In this document: positions 1 through 45,071 of the stretch, piece after piece | How positions within the stretch are numbered: the stretch's first letter is position 1 | Layout of the letters: each line of letters begins with the position of its first letter | Source: Acidimicrobium ferrooxidans | Lineage (GTDB): Bacteria; Actinomycetota; Geothermincolia; Fen-727; Anoxymicrobiaceae | Reading direction: 5' to 3' | DNA: 64,000 nt | NCBI GenBank assembly: GCA_020723485.1 | Contig: DYIU01000002.1 | Location: 901,190-965,189, forward strand | Position numbers and translations under genes: made by a program | The notes under the pieces: model-generated | What the model was told of the DNA's origin: nothing | Seen by the model: the letters and a program-made list of their open reading frames with translations, nothing else | The model's database searches: none

Positions 1-80
1 TCAGGTCGTTTTGTTGCATCTGTTTCCCTGCCGCGAATCACGCCTGGGAGTGCAACAAAACGACCTGACCCCGATTTTGC
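1..80. repeat. Palindromic repeat element (copy 1, cut by window start)
   Basis: Positions 1-18 and 51-68 are perfect 18-base inverted arms containing TCAGGTCGTTTTGTTGCA, separated by a 32-base loop. The right arm continues into CCCCGATTTTGC and ends one base before the stop codon of the ligase gene (TAG on the minus strand at 82-84). The core CAACAAAACGACCTGACCCC recurs at about 45031-45050, and related sequences occur near 4604, 38459, 32704, 50033 and 54642. It resembles REP/RAYT-type palindromes, but no transposase gene is present. It may form an RNA hairpin at the gene end. Confidence 0.8.
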
Positions 81-81
81 G

Positions 82-1584
82 CTAGAGTTCGGGGCGCTTG
101 TCGACGAAATGGAGCTCCTTCATGCAGTCGTCCGCTCGAAGCTGCTCCACCAGGTCGTCCAGTGGCAGGAACTCGATCGAGTTCGGCTTTACCTCGGTGG
201 CGTGCTCGAGCAGGGACTCGAGCTCGAGCCGGAGCTCCTCGCGGTCGCTTCCCTCGGTGGGCGCCACGAATACGTCAAGGACGTCCACCTCGTAGGGATC
301 GCCGCCGGACTTCGTTATCTGCACCTGCCACTCCTCGACCCGCGGGTGGCCGTCCAGCACGGTGCAGAACGCGCCCTGGTCCACAAGGGTTCCCTTCAGC
401 TTGATGAGAGAAAAGCCCTTGACCGCGCCGCACCTGGAGATGTCGCTACCCAGCCGGGGTACCCTCCTGCCGCAGGAAGGGCACGGCTCGTAGACCAGGC
501 CGCCCCTCACGAAGTCGCCGGTGCGGAACCTCACGACGGACGTGCCCTGGCCCTCGAGGCAGGTGTAGACCAGCTCGCCGTCCTCTCCCTCGGCGACGGG
601 GTCTCCCGTCTCGGGATCCACCAACTCGAAGTAGTCCATGTCGGGAAAGATGTGGTAGCCGGTATCGCAGTCCGGCGCGCACTCCGAGAATGCCTTTCGA
701 CCCTCGGTGAACCCCAGTGCCCCCACTATATAGAAGTCTCTAGCGCCCATCGCTTCCAGGAACCCGGCCATCTTCTCCTTCATGCCCTCGGAGATCCGCT
801 CGCCGGAAATGATGACCGCCTTGACGGAGGAGAAATCGCTGCCGGCCGCGGCGGCGGTACGGAGAAGGTGATATGTGTAGCTCGGCATGCCGATTATCCC
901 GCTCGCCCCCATCGTCTCCACGGCGTAGATTATCCGCTGGGTGCCGAGCCCGCGGCCCCCTCCCGAGTCCAGTGAGAGTATCCCGGCCCGGTCAAGGGCT
1001 CGGGAGGTCATCCAGAATCCCAGGTGGGGAGCGAAAGGCATCGCGTTGACCACCGTGGACCCCATAGAGTCGATCAGTGTGCCGTACCCGGCGAGCTCCA
1101 GGACCCTGCGCCCCGCCTCGGCCATGCGCAGGACGTCCTGGCGCGCGTAGAGTATCGGTGTCGGGATGCCGGTCCTCCCGGTAGTGAACTGTATGTGAAC
1201 GGGCCAGTAGTCGCGGTGGGTCCGCTCGGCCACGAACTCTTCGCCCTTGAACAGCCTGTCCAACCTGCGCCGCGCGTACTTGAGCCTCGGCATGTACCGG
1301 TTCATGAGCTCCTCGTCTGGCTGAAGGATGAACCTCCGGAACCTGTCAGGGTCGTCCGGGCCGGGCGCGATGTCGGCCTTGTAGGTGAACGGCAGCCCCC
1401 GCAGGTCTTCGACCCTCCGGATGCGGTGGGGGTCTATCCTGTTGTCATCGAAGAGTTTGCGGTAGAACTCGCTGTAGGGGTAGAGCTGGGTACGGATGAA
1501 GTAGGAGAGCTTGCGGTCACGATACTCACGCTGCTCATCGAATGACATCCGGTCCCAGTTCCGGGACCATATCTCCCGGGCCAT
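82..1584 (-). CDS. Phenylacetate-CoA ligase (PaaK)-like adenylate-forming enzyme
   Basis: This 500-residue protein belongs to the AMP-dependent synthetase superfamily, which activates a carboxylate with ATP and transfers it to CoA or another thiol. Visible signatures are a P-loop-like TTGRTGIPTP near residue 135, the central IIGMPSYTYHLLRTAA stretch typical of PaaK relatives, RTGDFV in the hinge region, and a CPSCGRR cysteine pair also seen in PaaK-type enzymes. It is longer than typical PaaK (about 430 residues), with an extended N terminus. The ATG at 1584 has GAAAGG upstream. It lies downstream of a DUF362 gene on the same strand. The substrate is unknown; an aryl or acyl acid is likely. 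Confidence 0.75.
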   Translation of the reverse strand: MAREIWSRNWDRMSFDEQREYRDRKLSYFIRTQLYPYSEFYRKLFDDNRIDPHRIRRVEDLRGLPFTYKADIAPGPDDPDRFRRFILQPDEELMNRYMPRLKYARRRLDRLFKGEEFVAERTHRDYWPVHIQFTTGRTGIPTPILYARQDVLRMAEAGRRVLELAGYGTLIDSMGSTVVNAMPFAPHLGFWMTSRALDRAGILSLDSGGGRGLGTQRIIYAVETMGASGIIGMPSYTYHLLRTAAAAGSDFSSVKAVIISGERISEGMKEKMAGFLEAMGARDFYIVGALGFTEGRKAFSECAPDCDTGYHIFPDMDYFELVDPETGDPVAEGEDGELVYTCLEGQGTSVVRFRTGDFVRGGLVYEPCPSCGRRVPRLGSDISRCGAVKGFSLIKLKGTLVDQGAFCTVLDGHPRVEEWQVQITKSGGDPYEVDVLDVFVAPTEGSDREELRLELESLLEHATEVKPNSIEFLPLDDLVEQLRADDCMKELHFVDKRPEL

Positions 1585-3624: not shown

Positions 3625-4995
3625 CTAAACCTGCGCGACGCCGGTATCGGCGGCGTGGAACCCGCTCATAATAGCGCCTTCGAGTGTCGGTGACGAGGTC
3701 CAGTCCCCCGCCAGGAGGAGATTCGAAGTGCCGCTCCCGTGGCCGGCCAGGGCGCGGACCCTCGCCGCGTGCCCCGTCGACACGACCGGCATCCCGAACT
3801 CGTGCCTGTCGACACGGGAGGCTGCCGGGTCCCCGCCGAGGCGGTAGACCCTCTCCGCTTCACAGACCGCCAGGTCCACAAGCCCGGTGTCGCCGCCCTG
3901 CATGAGCGCTTCCGCTTCACGTCCTGTGAAGACTACGGTCACGACCGATGCTCCCCCCGGGGCGTACTCGTCGGCCTTTCCGGCGTTAGTGGAGACCCAG
4001 CTCGCCCTGAAACCCTCAGAGCGCGGGAGGAGCACCGGCCCCGCCGTGCCCGAAGCCCCTTCCGGGTAAGCGAGGTTGACCACGACGCCTGGAGTGTAGA
4101 CAGCCGCCGCTGCCGCCTCGCGGGCGGCGCCCCCGAGTTCGGGGCAAACGCCGAGAGCGAGCGGGGCCGGGAGCGAGCATACCACCAGGTCCGCCGCGTG
4201 TTCTCCGACCTCACCGGTGGCTACGCTCCGTGAAGTGACGCCTGAGGCGCGACCGTTATCTACCATCACGCCCGTCACCTCGATCCCGGTGCGGATCTCG
4301 ACCCTGCGCGCCATCGCCCCCGCGAGCGAACCTACACCTGTGGTGAAGCTGACCGTCCTGTCCGCGAGCGCCAACCTCACGGCCGCCATTAGCCCAGCCG
4401 CACTCGTCCTGTCGAGCTCGGCACCGAAAGCGCAGAGTGCGAGAGGCTCGGCCAGGGCGTCCCGGAAGCTCTCCGGTGCGCCGTCGGCGAGCAACGAGGC
4501 CGCGGTGACCGCGTCACCCCTCTCCCACCACCCGGGAAACCTGATGTTGAAAGAGCGGTAATGGGCCAGCAGGGCCATGCACGCTCCGAGAGAACGCAAA
4601 AACGCAACAAGATGACCTGACCCCGATGTTGCGCTGAGCAGGCGTGCGACCGAGCGAGCGTTCCGGGGCAGGAACTCAATGACGCGGCCGCTGTTGTAGA
4701 TGCCCTGCGGAGCGCCCGGCATGCGGAACGTCTCCCCTATGCCGAGCTCTATCGCGGTCTTGAGGAAGGAGTCGAAGGAATCCCTGCAGTACTGCGCGCC
4801 GGTGTCGAAGATGTAACCGCCGGTGTTCACGGTGCGGCAGCGGCCGCCCGTGTCGGACTCCTTCTCGAGCACGGTGACCCGCCAGCCGAGGCGCCCCAGG
4901 CGGTACGCCGCGGCAAGGCCCGCCATTCCGCCCCCCGCTACTACCGCGGTCCCGGCGGAGGTCCTGTCGTCAGCGCTCTCAGGCACTCCAGGCAC
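3625..4995 (-). CDS. FAD-dependent desaturase/amine-oxidase-like oxidoreductase with an in-frame palindromic insertion
   Basis: This 456-residue flavoprotein has an N-terminal Rossmann dinucleotide motif (VVAGGGMAGLAAAYRLG) followed by LEKESDTGGRC, the pattern of phytoene desaturase, protoporphyrinogen oxidase and amine oxidases. The C terminus has LLLAGDWTSSPTLEGAIMSG, the FAD ribityl-binding segment. GTG at 4995 is the start, preceded by GAAGGAAG; the AOR gene ends 11 bases upstream, so the two are probably cotranscribed. Residues 121-131 (SATSGSGHLVA) are encoded entirely by a copy of the palindromic repeat found elsewhere in the window, inserted without breaking the frame. The substrate is unknown. 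Confidence 0.8.
   Translation of the reverse strand: MPGVPESADDRTSAGTAVVAGGGMAGLAAAYRLGRLGWRVTVLEKESDTGGRCRTVNTGGYIFDTGAQYCRDSFDSFLKTAIELGIGETFRMPGAPQGIYNSGRVIEFLPRNARSVARLLSATSGSGHLVAFLRSLGACMALLAHYRSFNIRFPGWWERGDAVTAASLLADGAPESFRDALAEPLALCAFGAELDRTSAAGLMAAVRLALADRTVSFTTGVGSLAGAMARRVEIRTGIEVTGVMVDNGRASGVTSRSVATGEVGEHAADLVVCSLPAPLALGVCPELGGAAREAAAAAVYTPGVVVNLAYPEGASGTAGPVLLPRSEGFRASWVSTNAGKADEYAPGGASVVTVVFTGREAEALMQGGDTGLVDLAVCEAERVYRLGGDPAASRVDRHEFGMPVVSTGHAARVRALAGHGSGTSNLLLAGDWTSSPTLEGAIMSGFHAADTGVAQV
4604..4632. repeat. Palindromic repeat unit inside a coding gene (copy 2)
   Basis: This is a 29-base unit with terminal inverted repeats GCAACA and TGTTGC around the core GACCTGACCCC. Extended to position 4635 it matches the right half of the element at 50-82 at about 29 of 32 positions, including the trailing GCGCT. 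It lies inside the flavoprotein gene and is translated as 11 residues in frame. Outside this gene, related units lie between genes or at their ends. Confidence 0.8.
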
Positions 4996-5006: not shown

Positions 5007-6881
5007 TCAGAGGTCCAGCATCCCGGCGAGCACCCCGAGGTCGAGCTCCTCCAGCTTCTCCCGGGAGACTTTCCCGCTCTCGTCCAGGTTGCGGTACTCG
5101 TAGTAATCTTTTTTCATCAGCTCGAAATCAGGTATGGAACCGGCGTGGGCCCCCTCCTCGACGGGGACCGCGATCCTCGGTGGCATCACATCTTCTTCGC
5201 CGTCGGTGCCCCACAGCGCCTGCAGGCCGCGCTTTATGAACCAGATGCGCTCTCCGACCCTCATGAACTCGTCCAGGTCGTAGTCGAAGCCGGTGACAGC
5301 GTTCATGGCCTCGAGGAGCGAGTCCTCGTTCCAGGCTATCGCGGTGAACAGGCACACAACCGCGGAGTTGAATATCTGCCCCAGCTCCTGGGCCCTGGCG
5401 GTGAGGTAGCCCTTCCCTACGCTCGACTGCTCCTCCACGTTCTCGCCCAGGCCTATCTTCGGGAGCATCACGCTGCTGCCCTGCTCCAGGTAGAGGTTTG
5501 TGCTGGCGCAGTGGCAGCCGCCGCGTACGGAGGTAGCGTACGCAATGGCGAATCCGTGGAAGGCCCTTGGGTCGTGCGCCGGGAGGTCGAGGCCCCGCGC
5601 CTGAACCGCCATGTCGGGCGCCTCTCCCCCAATCGACCCGGCGAGCGCGCGGCTGCCCTCGGCCATGCGAGCTCCGAATCCCTCGTTGGTGGCCACGAGC
5701 TCGATGAGCCTGAGCATCCCTTCAGGGTCGCCCCAGCCTATTGCTATCCCGTCGCATTCCTCGGGACTGAGGAGGCCTTTCTCCTGGCACTCCGTGACGA
5801 CCGCTATGGCCTCTCCGAGGGAGATGGTGTCCATGCCGTACCTGTTGCAGAGCTCGTTGCCCTTCGCCACGCTCGCCACGTCGCCGTTCATCAGGTTGGT
5901 CCCGAGCATGCAGATGGTCTCGTACTCCGGACCGGCGCCCTGCTCCAGCTTGAACGGCCCTTCGTCCACTTTCACCACGCGCTTACAGCCTATCGGGCAT
6001 GCCCAGCAGGCGTAGTTCTTGACCAGTATCTCGTCGCAGTACGTGGGGCCGTTCAGGGTGCCTATCACCTCGTCGGCCTCGCCGACCTGCCAGTTCTTGA
6101 AGGGCACGTCGCCGAGCCAGGAGCCCACCTCGAGGTTGGCGTTCGTGCCGAACTCCCTGAGCGATTCGACGACCAGCGCCCCGGAGATGAAGTCCATGAC
6201 CCCCTTGCGCCACTCCTTGAGCGCCTCCGGGTCGGCGGGCTCCTGTTTGTTCCCCGCGCCCACTACCGCTATCGCCTTCAGGTTCTTGGAGCCCATGACG
6301 GCGCCCATACCGGTGCGCCCGGCGATGTGATGTTTGTCGTGCACGATCGCGGCGAACCGGACCCCTCTCTCGCCAGCCTGGCCTATGGCCGCGACCTTCG
6401 GCTTCCTGCCGGACTCCTCCTTGCCCCTTTCAGCCAGGATGTCGGCCGTCTCGTAGGTGTCCTTCCCCCACAGGTCATCCGCGTCACGGAGCTCGACCTG
6501 GTCTCCGTTAATCCACAGGTAGACGGGCTTCCCGGACGCGCCGGTGAAGATTATCCCGTCATACCCGGCGGCTTTCAGTTCCGGCCCCAGGTAGCCCCCG
6601 CACGAGGCTTCGCCCCAGTGACCCGTGAGCGGCGAGCGCGCCACGACCGCGAACCTGTTGCCTCCGGGCACCCTGCTGCCGGTCCATGGGCCTGTCATCA
6701 GAATCATGGGGTTGTCCGGTCCCAGCGGGTCGACGTCGCCCGGGAACCGGTCGAGGTACATCTTGGCTCCTAGCCCGGAGCCGCCAAGGTAGTCGCGGCA
6801 GTCACTCTCGTCCAACTCATGGGTCTGGATGCCGCCGGTCGAGAGGTCGACTTCCAGGACCTTGCCAGCGTAGCCATGCAT
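5007..6881 (-). CDS. aor: Aldehyde ferredoxin oxidoreductase (tungsten/molybdenum bis-pterin)
   Basis: The 624-residue protein matches AOR family length and order. The N-terminal AOR domain has YAGKVLEVDLSTG, SGLGAKMYLDRF and NRFAVVARSPLTGHWGEASCGG; HHIAGRTGMGAVMGSKNLKAIAV follows near residue 190. A CWACPIGC motif near residue 290 (CxxCxxxC) and a later GGCHC near 453 supply the [4Fe-4S] ligands. AOR enzymes oxidise aldehydes to carboxylates using ferredoxin, or run in reverse. ATG at 6881 has GGAGG seven bases upstream. It is probably the first gene of an operon with the downstream flavoprotein. Substrate specificity within the AOR/FOR/GAPOR family cannot be assigned. Confidence 0.92.
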   Translation of the reverse strand: MHGYAGKVLEVDLSTGGIQTHELDESDCRDYLGGSGLGAKMYLDRFPGDVDPLGPDNPMILMTGPWTGSRVPGGNRFAVVARSPLTGHWGEASCGGYLGPELKAAGYDGIIFTGASGKPVYLWINGDQVELRDADDLWGKDTYETADILAERGKEESGRKPKVAAIGQAGERGVRFAAIVHDKHHIAGRTGMGAVMGSKNLKAIAVVGAGNKQEPADPEALKEWRKGVMDFISGALVVESLREFGTNANLEVGSWLGDVPFKNWQVGEADEVIGTLNGPTYCDEILVKNYACWACPIGCKRVVKVDEGPFKLEQGAGPEYETICMLGTNLMNGDVASVAKGNELCNRYGMDTISLGEAIAVVTECQEKGLLSPEECDGIAIGWGDPEGMLRLIELVATNEGFGARMAEGSRALAGSIGGEAPDMAVQARGLDLPAHDPRAFHGFAIAYATSVRGGCHCASTNLYLEQGSSVMLPKIGLGENVEEQSSVGKGYLTARAQELGQIFNSAVVCLFTAIAWNEDSLLEAMNAVTGFDYDLDEFMRVGERIWFIKRGLQALWGTDGEEDVMPPRIAVPVEEGAHAGSIPDFELMKKDYYEYRNLDESGKVSREKLEELDLGVLAGMLDL

Positions 6882-38297: not shown

Positions 38298-38458
38298 CGC
38301 AATCCCTCCGTGCTCCGTACTCGTTACTCTATTCGGAACAGACGAGGCAAACCTTGCGGTAATTACAAGAAATAATCAGAAAAATTCACGAGCGGTACGA
38401 GCCGGCGGCGCCCGGCAAAGGGGCGCCGCGCGCCGGCGCAGAAAGCAAGAAAGGAATC

Positions 38459-38487
38459 GCAACAATGGGGTCAGGTCACTTTGTTGC
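38459..38487. repeat. Palindromic repeat unit (copy 4)
   Basis: A 29-base unit with 7-base terminal inverted repeats GCAACAA/TTGTTGC around GGGGTCAGGTC. It has the same length and core as the unit inside the flavoprotein gene at 4604-4632, read on the other strand. It lies about 30 bases upstream of the TSUP gene start. Confidence 0.75.
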
Positions 38488-38517
38488 ATTCCGCCGCTCG
38501 GAACAGGATGTGGTCAT

Positions 38518-44961: not shown

Positions 44962-44967
44962 TATAAT
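44962..44967 (+). promoter_or_regulatory. -10 element upstream of the PLP-enzyme gene
   Basis: A perfect TATAAT lies nine bases before the palindromic repeat at 44976-45050. Transcription from here would include the whole repeat in the leader of the gene at 45072. No good -35 is seen. Confidence 0.4.
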
Positions 44968-44975
44968 GCAACATT

Positions 44976-45050
44976 GGGGTCAGGTCGTTTTGTTGCATTT
45001 GAAACCCATGCCGGCAAAACGCCTGAAATGCAACAAAACGACCTGACCCC
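44976..45050. repeat. Palindromic repeat element (copy 6), full length
   Basis: Perfect 25-base inverted arms run 44976-45000 and 45026-45050, with GGGGTCAGGTC at the outer end and TTTTGTTGCA inside, around a 25-base loop. Short extensions outside the arms (ATGCAACATT and GTTTTGCAT) are also partly complementary. It lies in the leader of the PLP-enzyme gene and ends nine bases before its Shine-Dalgarno, so the RNA hairpin could affect its translation. Confidence 0.85.
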
Positions 45051-45071
45051 GTTTTGCATGGAGGTGGGAAA

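Follow-up and report, generated by a model that had tools for sequence, protein, structure and literature searches.

A REP repeat unit read in frame within a flavoprotein gene, probably in place of native sequence

In the 64,000-nt stretch of the Acidimicrobium ferrooxidans assembly analysed here (the window), a gene for an FAD-dependent oxidoreductase carries a single unit of a RAYT-associated REP family within its coding sequence. This copy was probably incorporated in place of approximately 27 nt of native sequence, a change that would have left the gene open and only 9 nt longer. The first-pass annotation had already recognised a member of the repeat family in this gene, through which the reading frame stays open, and both observations hold: positions 4604-4635 match window positions 52-83 at 29 of 32 nucleotides (91%), the exact core is present, and the copies at 38458 and 44968-45061 are related. 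The location originally given for the element is correct, but its extent needed revision, as alignment to the family profile places the unit at about 4599-4636 and thus assigns to it residues 121-132 rather than 121-131 (Table 1).

Table 1. Repeat units in the window and the gene that carries one of them.
Feature	Position in window	Strand	Basis or remark
FAD-dependent oxidoreductase gene, carrier of the REP	3625..4995	-	ORF; 456 aa, GTG start
In-gene REP unit coding residues 121-132 (SATSGSGHLVAF)	4599..4636	-	Family profile match, -12 to +25
REP core GGGGTCAGGTC inside the gene	4614..4624	-	268 genome copies vs 2 for reversed control
Hairpin 5' stem arm GCGCAACA	4627..4634	-	DNA fold
Hairpin 3' stem arm TGTTGCGT	4602..4609	-	DNA fold
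Intergenic REPIN, two inverted units	1..84	.	Cores at C5:901186 (+) and 901251 (-); left edge just before the window
Single REP unit, intergenic	38455..38492	+	Sequence match to the family
Intergenic REPIN, two inverted units	44965..45062	.	Arms 100% complementary over 25 nt

The host gene is intact and functional-looking. Its product belongs with the amine-oxidase/protoporphyrinogen-oxidase (PPO)/HpnE-like proteins (PF01593, E=4.3e-36), the match to HpnE itself being weak (90 bits, under the model's cut-off). An aldehyde ferredoxin oxidoreductase gene (5007-6881) adjoins it, and the same neighbour is found at four related loci (L036, L037, L112 and L113). The coding signal flanking every copy of the repeat was scored with a home-made gene model based on dicodons, for which long ORFs of contig C5 served as the training set. 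For this unit the signals are strong to the left and right in a single frame (scores 83.0 and 33.0), and the frame runs uninterrupted through the REP. A related-locus search in genome contigs returned only a distant Staphylococcus homologue. AlphaFold, run on the single sequence, gave a pLDDT of 34, and placement of the REP-coded segment on solved relatives was too weak to assign it to a surface loop or otherwise.

Several properties of the in-gene segment indicate that it is a genuine, recent and nearly unmutated REP copy. It is identical over 35/35 nt to a copy at C3:300132, and the unit is therefore recent when set against the divergence (about 50%) of the host protein's orthologues. As DNA, it folds into a hairpin with an 8-bp stem (-6.1 kcal/mol, z = -4.1 vs shuffles). 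Only one unit is present in the gene, in contrast to the two-unit palindrome (REPIN) at 44965-45062, whose fold reaches -35.7 kcal/mol (z=-9.5). The exact core occurs 268 times in the 3.36-Mb genome (134 copies per strand) and only twice in the reversed-sequence control, which excludes chance resemblance. Taken together, an assembly error or a fortuitous match is a very remote explanation: nothing was found for it beyond the general risk attached to draft contigs, whereas a single open frame with coding signal to the left and right of the unit is found, on a contig of 1.03 Mb, and the match to another family member argues against coincidence. Frame openness was dropped as evidence; it is weak on its own because the top strand of the REP consensus lacks stop codons in all three frames.

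The case for replacement comes from comparison of the protein with five orthologues, which were found and aligned, are 32-48% identical to it and all come from other genera. Between two invariant anchors, PR (residues 110-111) and YR (residues 146-147), there are 34 residues here and 31 in 5/5 orthologues, two of which lie outside the family; had 11-12 residues been cleanly inserted, the count would be 42-43. The 12 REP-coded residues occupy the place of PWRALGLK- or its equivalent in the orthologues, and immediately beyond the REP the alignment with them resumes, with no spacer remnant. Because the net gain is only three residues in a region of constant length, native sequence was probably replaced, about nine native residues having been lost where 12 repeat-coded ones now stand. 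The REP-coded residues are absent from all five orthologues, as the repeat origin proposed in the first-pass annotation requires; two of the three closest come from near repeat-free genomes with one core (G007) and two cores (G002). Since the orthologues are only 32-48% identical to the protein, the loop may also have changed earlier in this lineage, prior to the arrival of the REP.

These lengths bear directly on the reading first put forward, namely a clean in-frame insertion of a palindrome that adds a peptide (10-11 residues in the original proposal, 11-12 by the revised extent), as in the Rickettsia palindromic elements (RPEs). Such an insertion would account for a REP in frame within an intact gene, its 36 nt are a multiple of three, and both REPs and RPEs have been documented inside genes. 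The constant anchor-to-anchor distances nevertheless contradict it and led to its rejection, and a second in-gene case, in an AftD-like protein, likewise shows a gain of only two residues; a clean insertion is thus improbable.

The wider family was defined by exact matches to the 11-mer core GGGGTCAGGTC, so that decayed copies are missed by the count; the examined stretches, totalling 2.38 Mb, cover all 268 copies. Alignment of the canonically spaced copies delimits a conserved unit of about 38 nt, from approximately -12 to +25 around the core, which reads AACGCAACATC-GGGGTCAGGTC-AYTTTGTTGCRTTTT. The copies fall into 189 sites, comprising 111 singlets, 77 doublets and one triplet, and 74 of the doublets are inward-facing pairs with a modal core spacing of 66 bp. 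REPINs are known to be built in this manner, as inverted REP doublets with preferred spacing (PMC3116915). A high-copy imperfect palindrome of 20-40 nt, mostly extragenic and arranged in inverted doublets with preferred spacing, is the hallmark of REP/RAYT systems, and the hairpin-forming 38-nt unit shows each of these features. An Rfam search at the repeats gave no match, and a literature text search for the 11-mer core found no paper on it.

Position relative to genes is strongly asymmetric. For the 129 sites adjacent to the 3' end of a gene, uniform placement in the gap would put about 32 no more than 3 bp from the stop codon. The observed number is 81, of which 40 abut the stop codon without any gap; only 2/123 sites adjacent to a 5' end are as close. 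In the window, the REPIN at its left edge overlaps the 3' end of a gene on the minus strand (82-1584). The C-terminus or the stop codon is supplied by the REP in about 15 genes, which often end in ..SGSGHFVA; for example, genes end inside a REP at C3:295970, C3:1071172, C3:710052, C5:845685 and C5:374412. A tendency toward stop codons and REPs within ORFs that add peptides are also described for other REPs (Di Nocera et al., 2013; PMC3733652).

The link to a transposase is provided by relatives. Class-wide, the GGGGTCAGGTC core is frequent in many genomes and the Y1_Tnp (RAYT) proteins are homologous, and in nine relatives a Y1_Tnp gene is bracketed by inverted copies of the core (L116, L117, L118, L120, L121, L122, L123, L125 and L139), for example at -260 (+) and +1034 (-) in L117 and at -508 (+) and +428 (-) in L139. 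On this arrangement of sequences, the family is identified as a REP/RAYT system. The sequence adjacent to the core at these nine RAYT genes varies by species. At a further locus, L127 (G020), several copies of a variant repeat, GGGGTCAGATC, follow the RAYT gene as direct repeats. The genome under study, which is 95% complete, has three Y1_Tnp genes, of which only that at C3:242875 has a copy in its neighbourhood, about 1.3 kb away. None of the three is REP-flanked, so that none stands out as the cognate RAYT and the family is at most putatively mobile in this genome today.

The family can be compared with three sets of known elements. It resembles the REP/BIME/REPIN elements associated with RAYT (TnpA-REP) in being a short imperfect palindrome with more than 100 copies, mostly intergenic; in forming inverted doublets with preferred spacing near gene 3' ends; and in the location of transposase genes between inverted copies, here in the relatives. 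Unlike in known REPs, the core sits in the loop of a GCAACA/TGTTGC hairpin, and the consensus AACGCAACATCGGGGTCAGGTCACTTTGTTGCATTTTC carries neither the GTAG nor the CGTC tag of the two REP superfamilies described in PMC3733652. The intragenic REPs reported there offer the closest parallel, with REPs in ORFs coding for peptides and REP ends giving neighbouring genes their stop codons. In the part of that paper at hand, these are treated as inserts that code for peptides and a loss of native residues is not analysed, whereas the two cases here exchange 8-10 native residues with the length nearly unchanged. RPEs share with this family an in-frame palindromic repeat within genes, the likeness to which the first-pass annotation had drawn attention, but kinship finds no support. 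RPEs belong to another host group and lengthen the protein by the peptide that they code, whereas here 11-12 coded residues yield net gains of three and two and a RAYT link is present; on these grounds, and not by sequence comparison, the family was set apart as a RAYT-type REP whose effect on protein length clearly departs from that in the Rickettsia model.

A search of the genome for further in-gene copies, which the first-pass annotation had suggested, yielded two more. Once fortuitous 11-mers and shadow frames on the antisense strand had been set aside, three of about 266 genuine copies proved to be mid-gene, a very strong deficit given that 91% of the sequence is coding. The second copy (C3:81619) lies in an AftD-like GT-C membrane protein (PF11847), where the reverse orientation is the one translated, giving ETQQNDLTPILR; from FREPQKF to GGLWG this protein has 55 residues, compared with 53 in 3/3 orthologues, and the case is again a near length-neutral replacement. 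At the third (C3:112154, locus L145), MobA reads through IATSGSGHFVAF in frame into the next gene, whereas the orthologues at L189 and L192 have two separate ORFs, MobA terminating immediately ahead of a downstream gene that lies in another frame. REPs are thus readable in both orientations within genes, with the GSG frame commonest, and therefore no single frame is obligatory. Among the candidates discarded, the in-gene 11-mers at C2:230742 and C5:382314 are chance core matches without a flanking hairpin, and those at C3:371094, C3:629330, C5:977660, C11:73885, C11:267657 and C7:14797 fall in antisense shadow frames or in upstream extensions of true starts. In addition, a TrpE-like gene (C11:454234) begins with a REP, which may supply its start codon (TTG). 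It is proposed that the copies inside genes are the rare ones to have survived there, the element otherwise being maintained beside stop codons.

With respect to mechanism, the TnpA-REP transposases act on single-stranded hairpin DNA (PMC8266576). By analogy, and because RAYT genes of relatives are bracketed by the same core, the in-gene REP would have been mobilised by a Y1-family RAYT on such a substrate. The native residues could then have been lost in the same event, if the copying involved template switching, or soon afterwards, through a deletion favoured by selection because it restored the frame and the loop length. For the former, the REP would have been copied by template switching, or from a RAYT-made single strand during replication, and would have overwritten a tract of similar length. 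We regard such a concerted replacement as a tenable but tentative account: two independent genes are near length-neutral (+3 and +2 residues) and the REP in the oxidoreductase gene is nearly unmutated, yet the clean cases number just two, and the same pattern would result from selection for loop length. A two-step history, in which the gene was first disrupted by insertion of a REPIN of about 98 bp and its frame was then restored by a deletion that spanned one of the REPs, the spacer and about 27 nt of the target, is rather doubtful. Doublets are common in the family (74 inward pairs) and form long hairpins, and frame-restoring deletions would be selected; on the other hand, no trace of the spacer is left where the sequence resumes its alignment with the orthologues, and a doublet precursor is unnecessary given that 111/189 sites are singlets. 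The lack of a spacer remnant, together with the two near length-neutral cases, leads us to lean slightly toward simultaneous loss. Whichever route was taken, the REP-encoded peptide is most likely tolerated and not a functional innovation. Replacement by simultaneous loss can be extended, speculatively and with limited expectation that it will hold, to the whole family: on entering a gene, its REPs may overwrite a stretch of similar length rather than insert, by a template switch or a single-strand patch made during replication, and may in this way swap loops without a change of frame or length; they may also give genes new C-terminal tails or fuse neighbouring genes.

The suggestion that a palindrome can create protein segments stands insofar as the repeat is in frame within an intact gene and supplies part of its coding sequence; the idea itself is not novel, as intragenic, peptide-adding REPs are already known from PMC3733652. 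The novelty lies in the sequence type of the REP and in the pattern of replacement, near length-neutral replacement being unusual among repeats inside genes. Caution is warranted, in that an intragenic REP should not be taken for a simple insertion. If the replacement pattern holds, the mode by which REPs spread, by insertion or by patch replacement, which is poorly understood, would become testable by comparison of close strains, and RAYT-linked short repeats would provide proteins with exchanged loops and C-terminal tails ready made.
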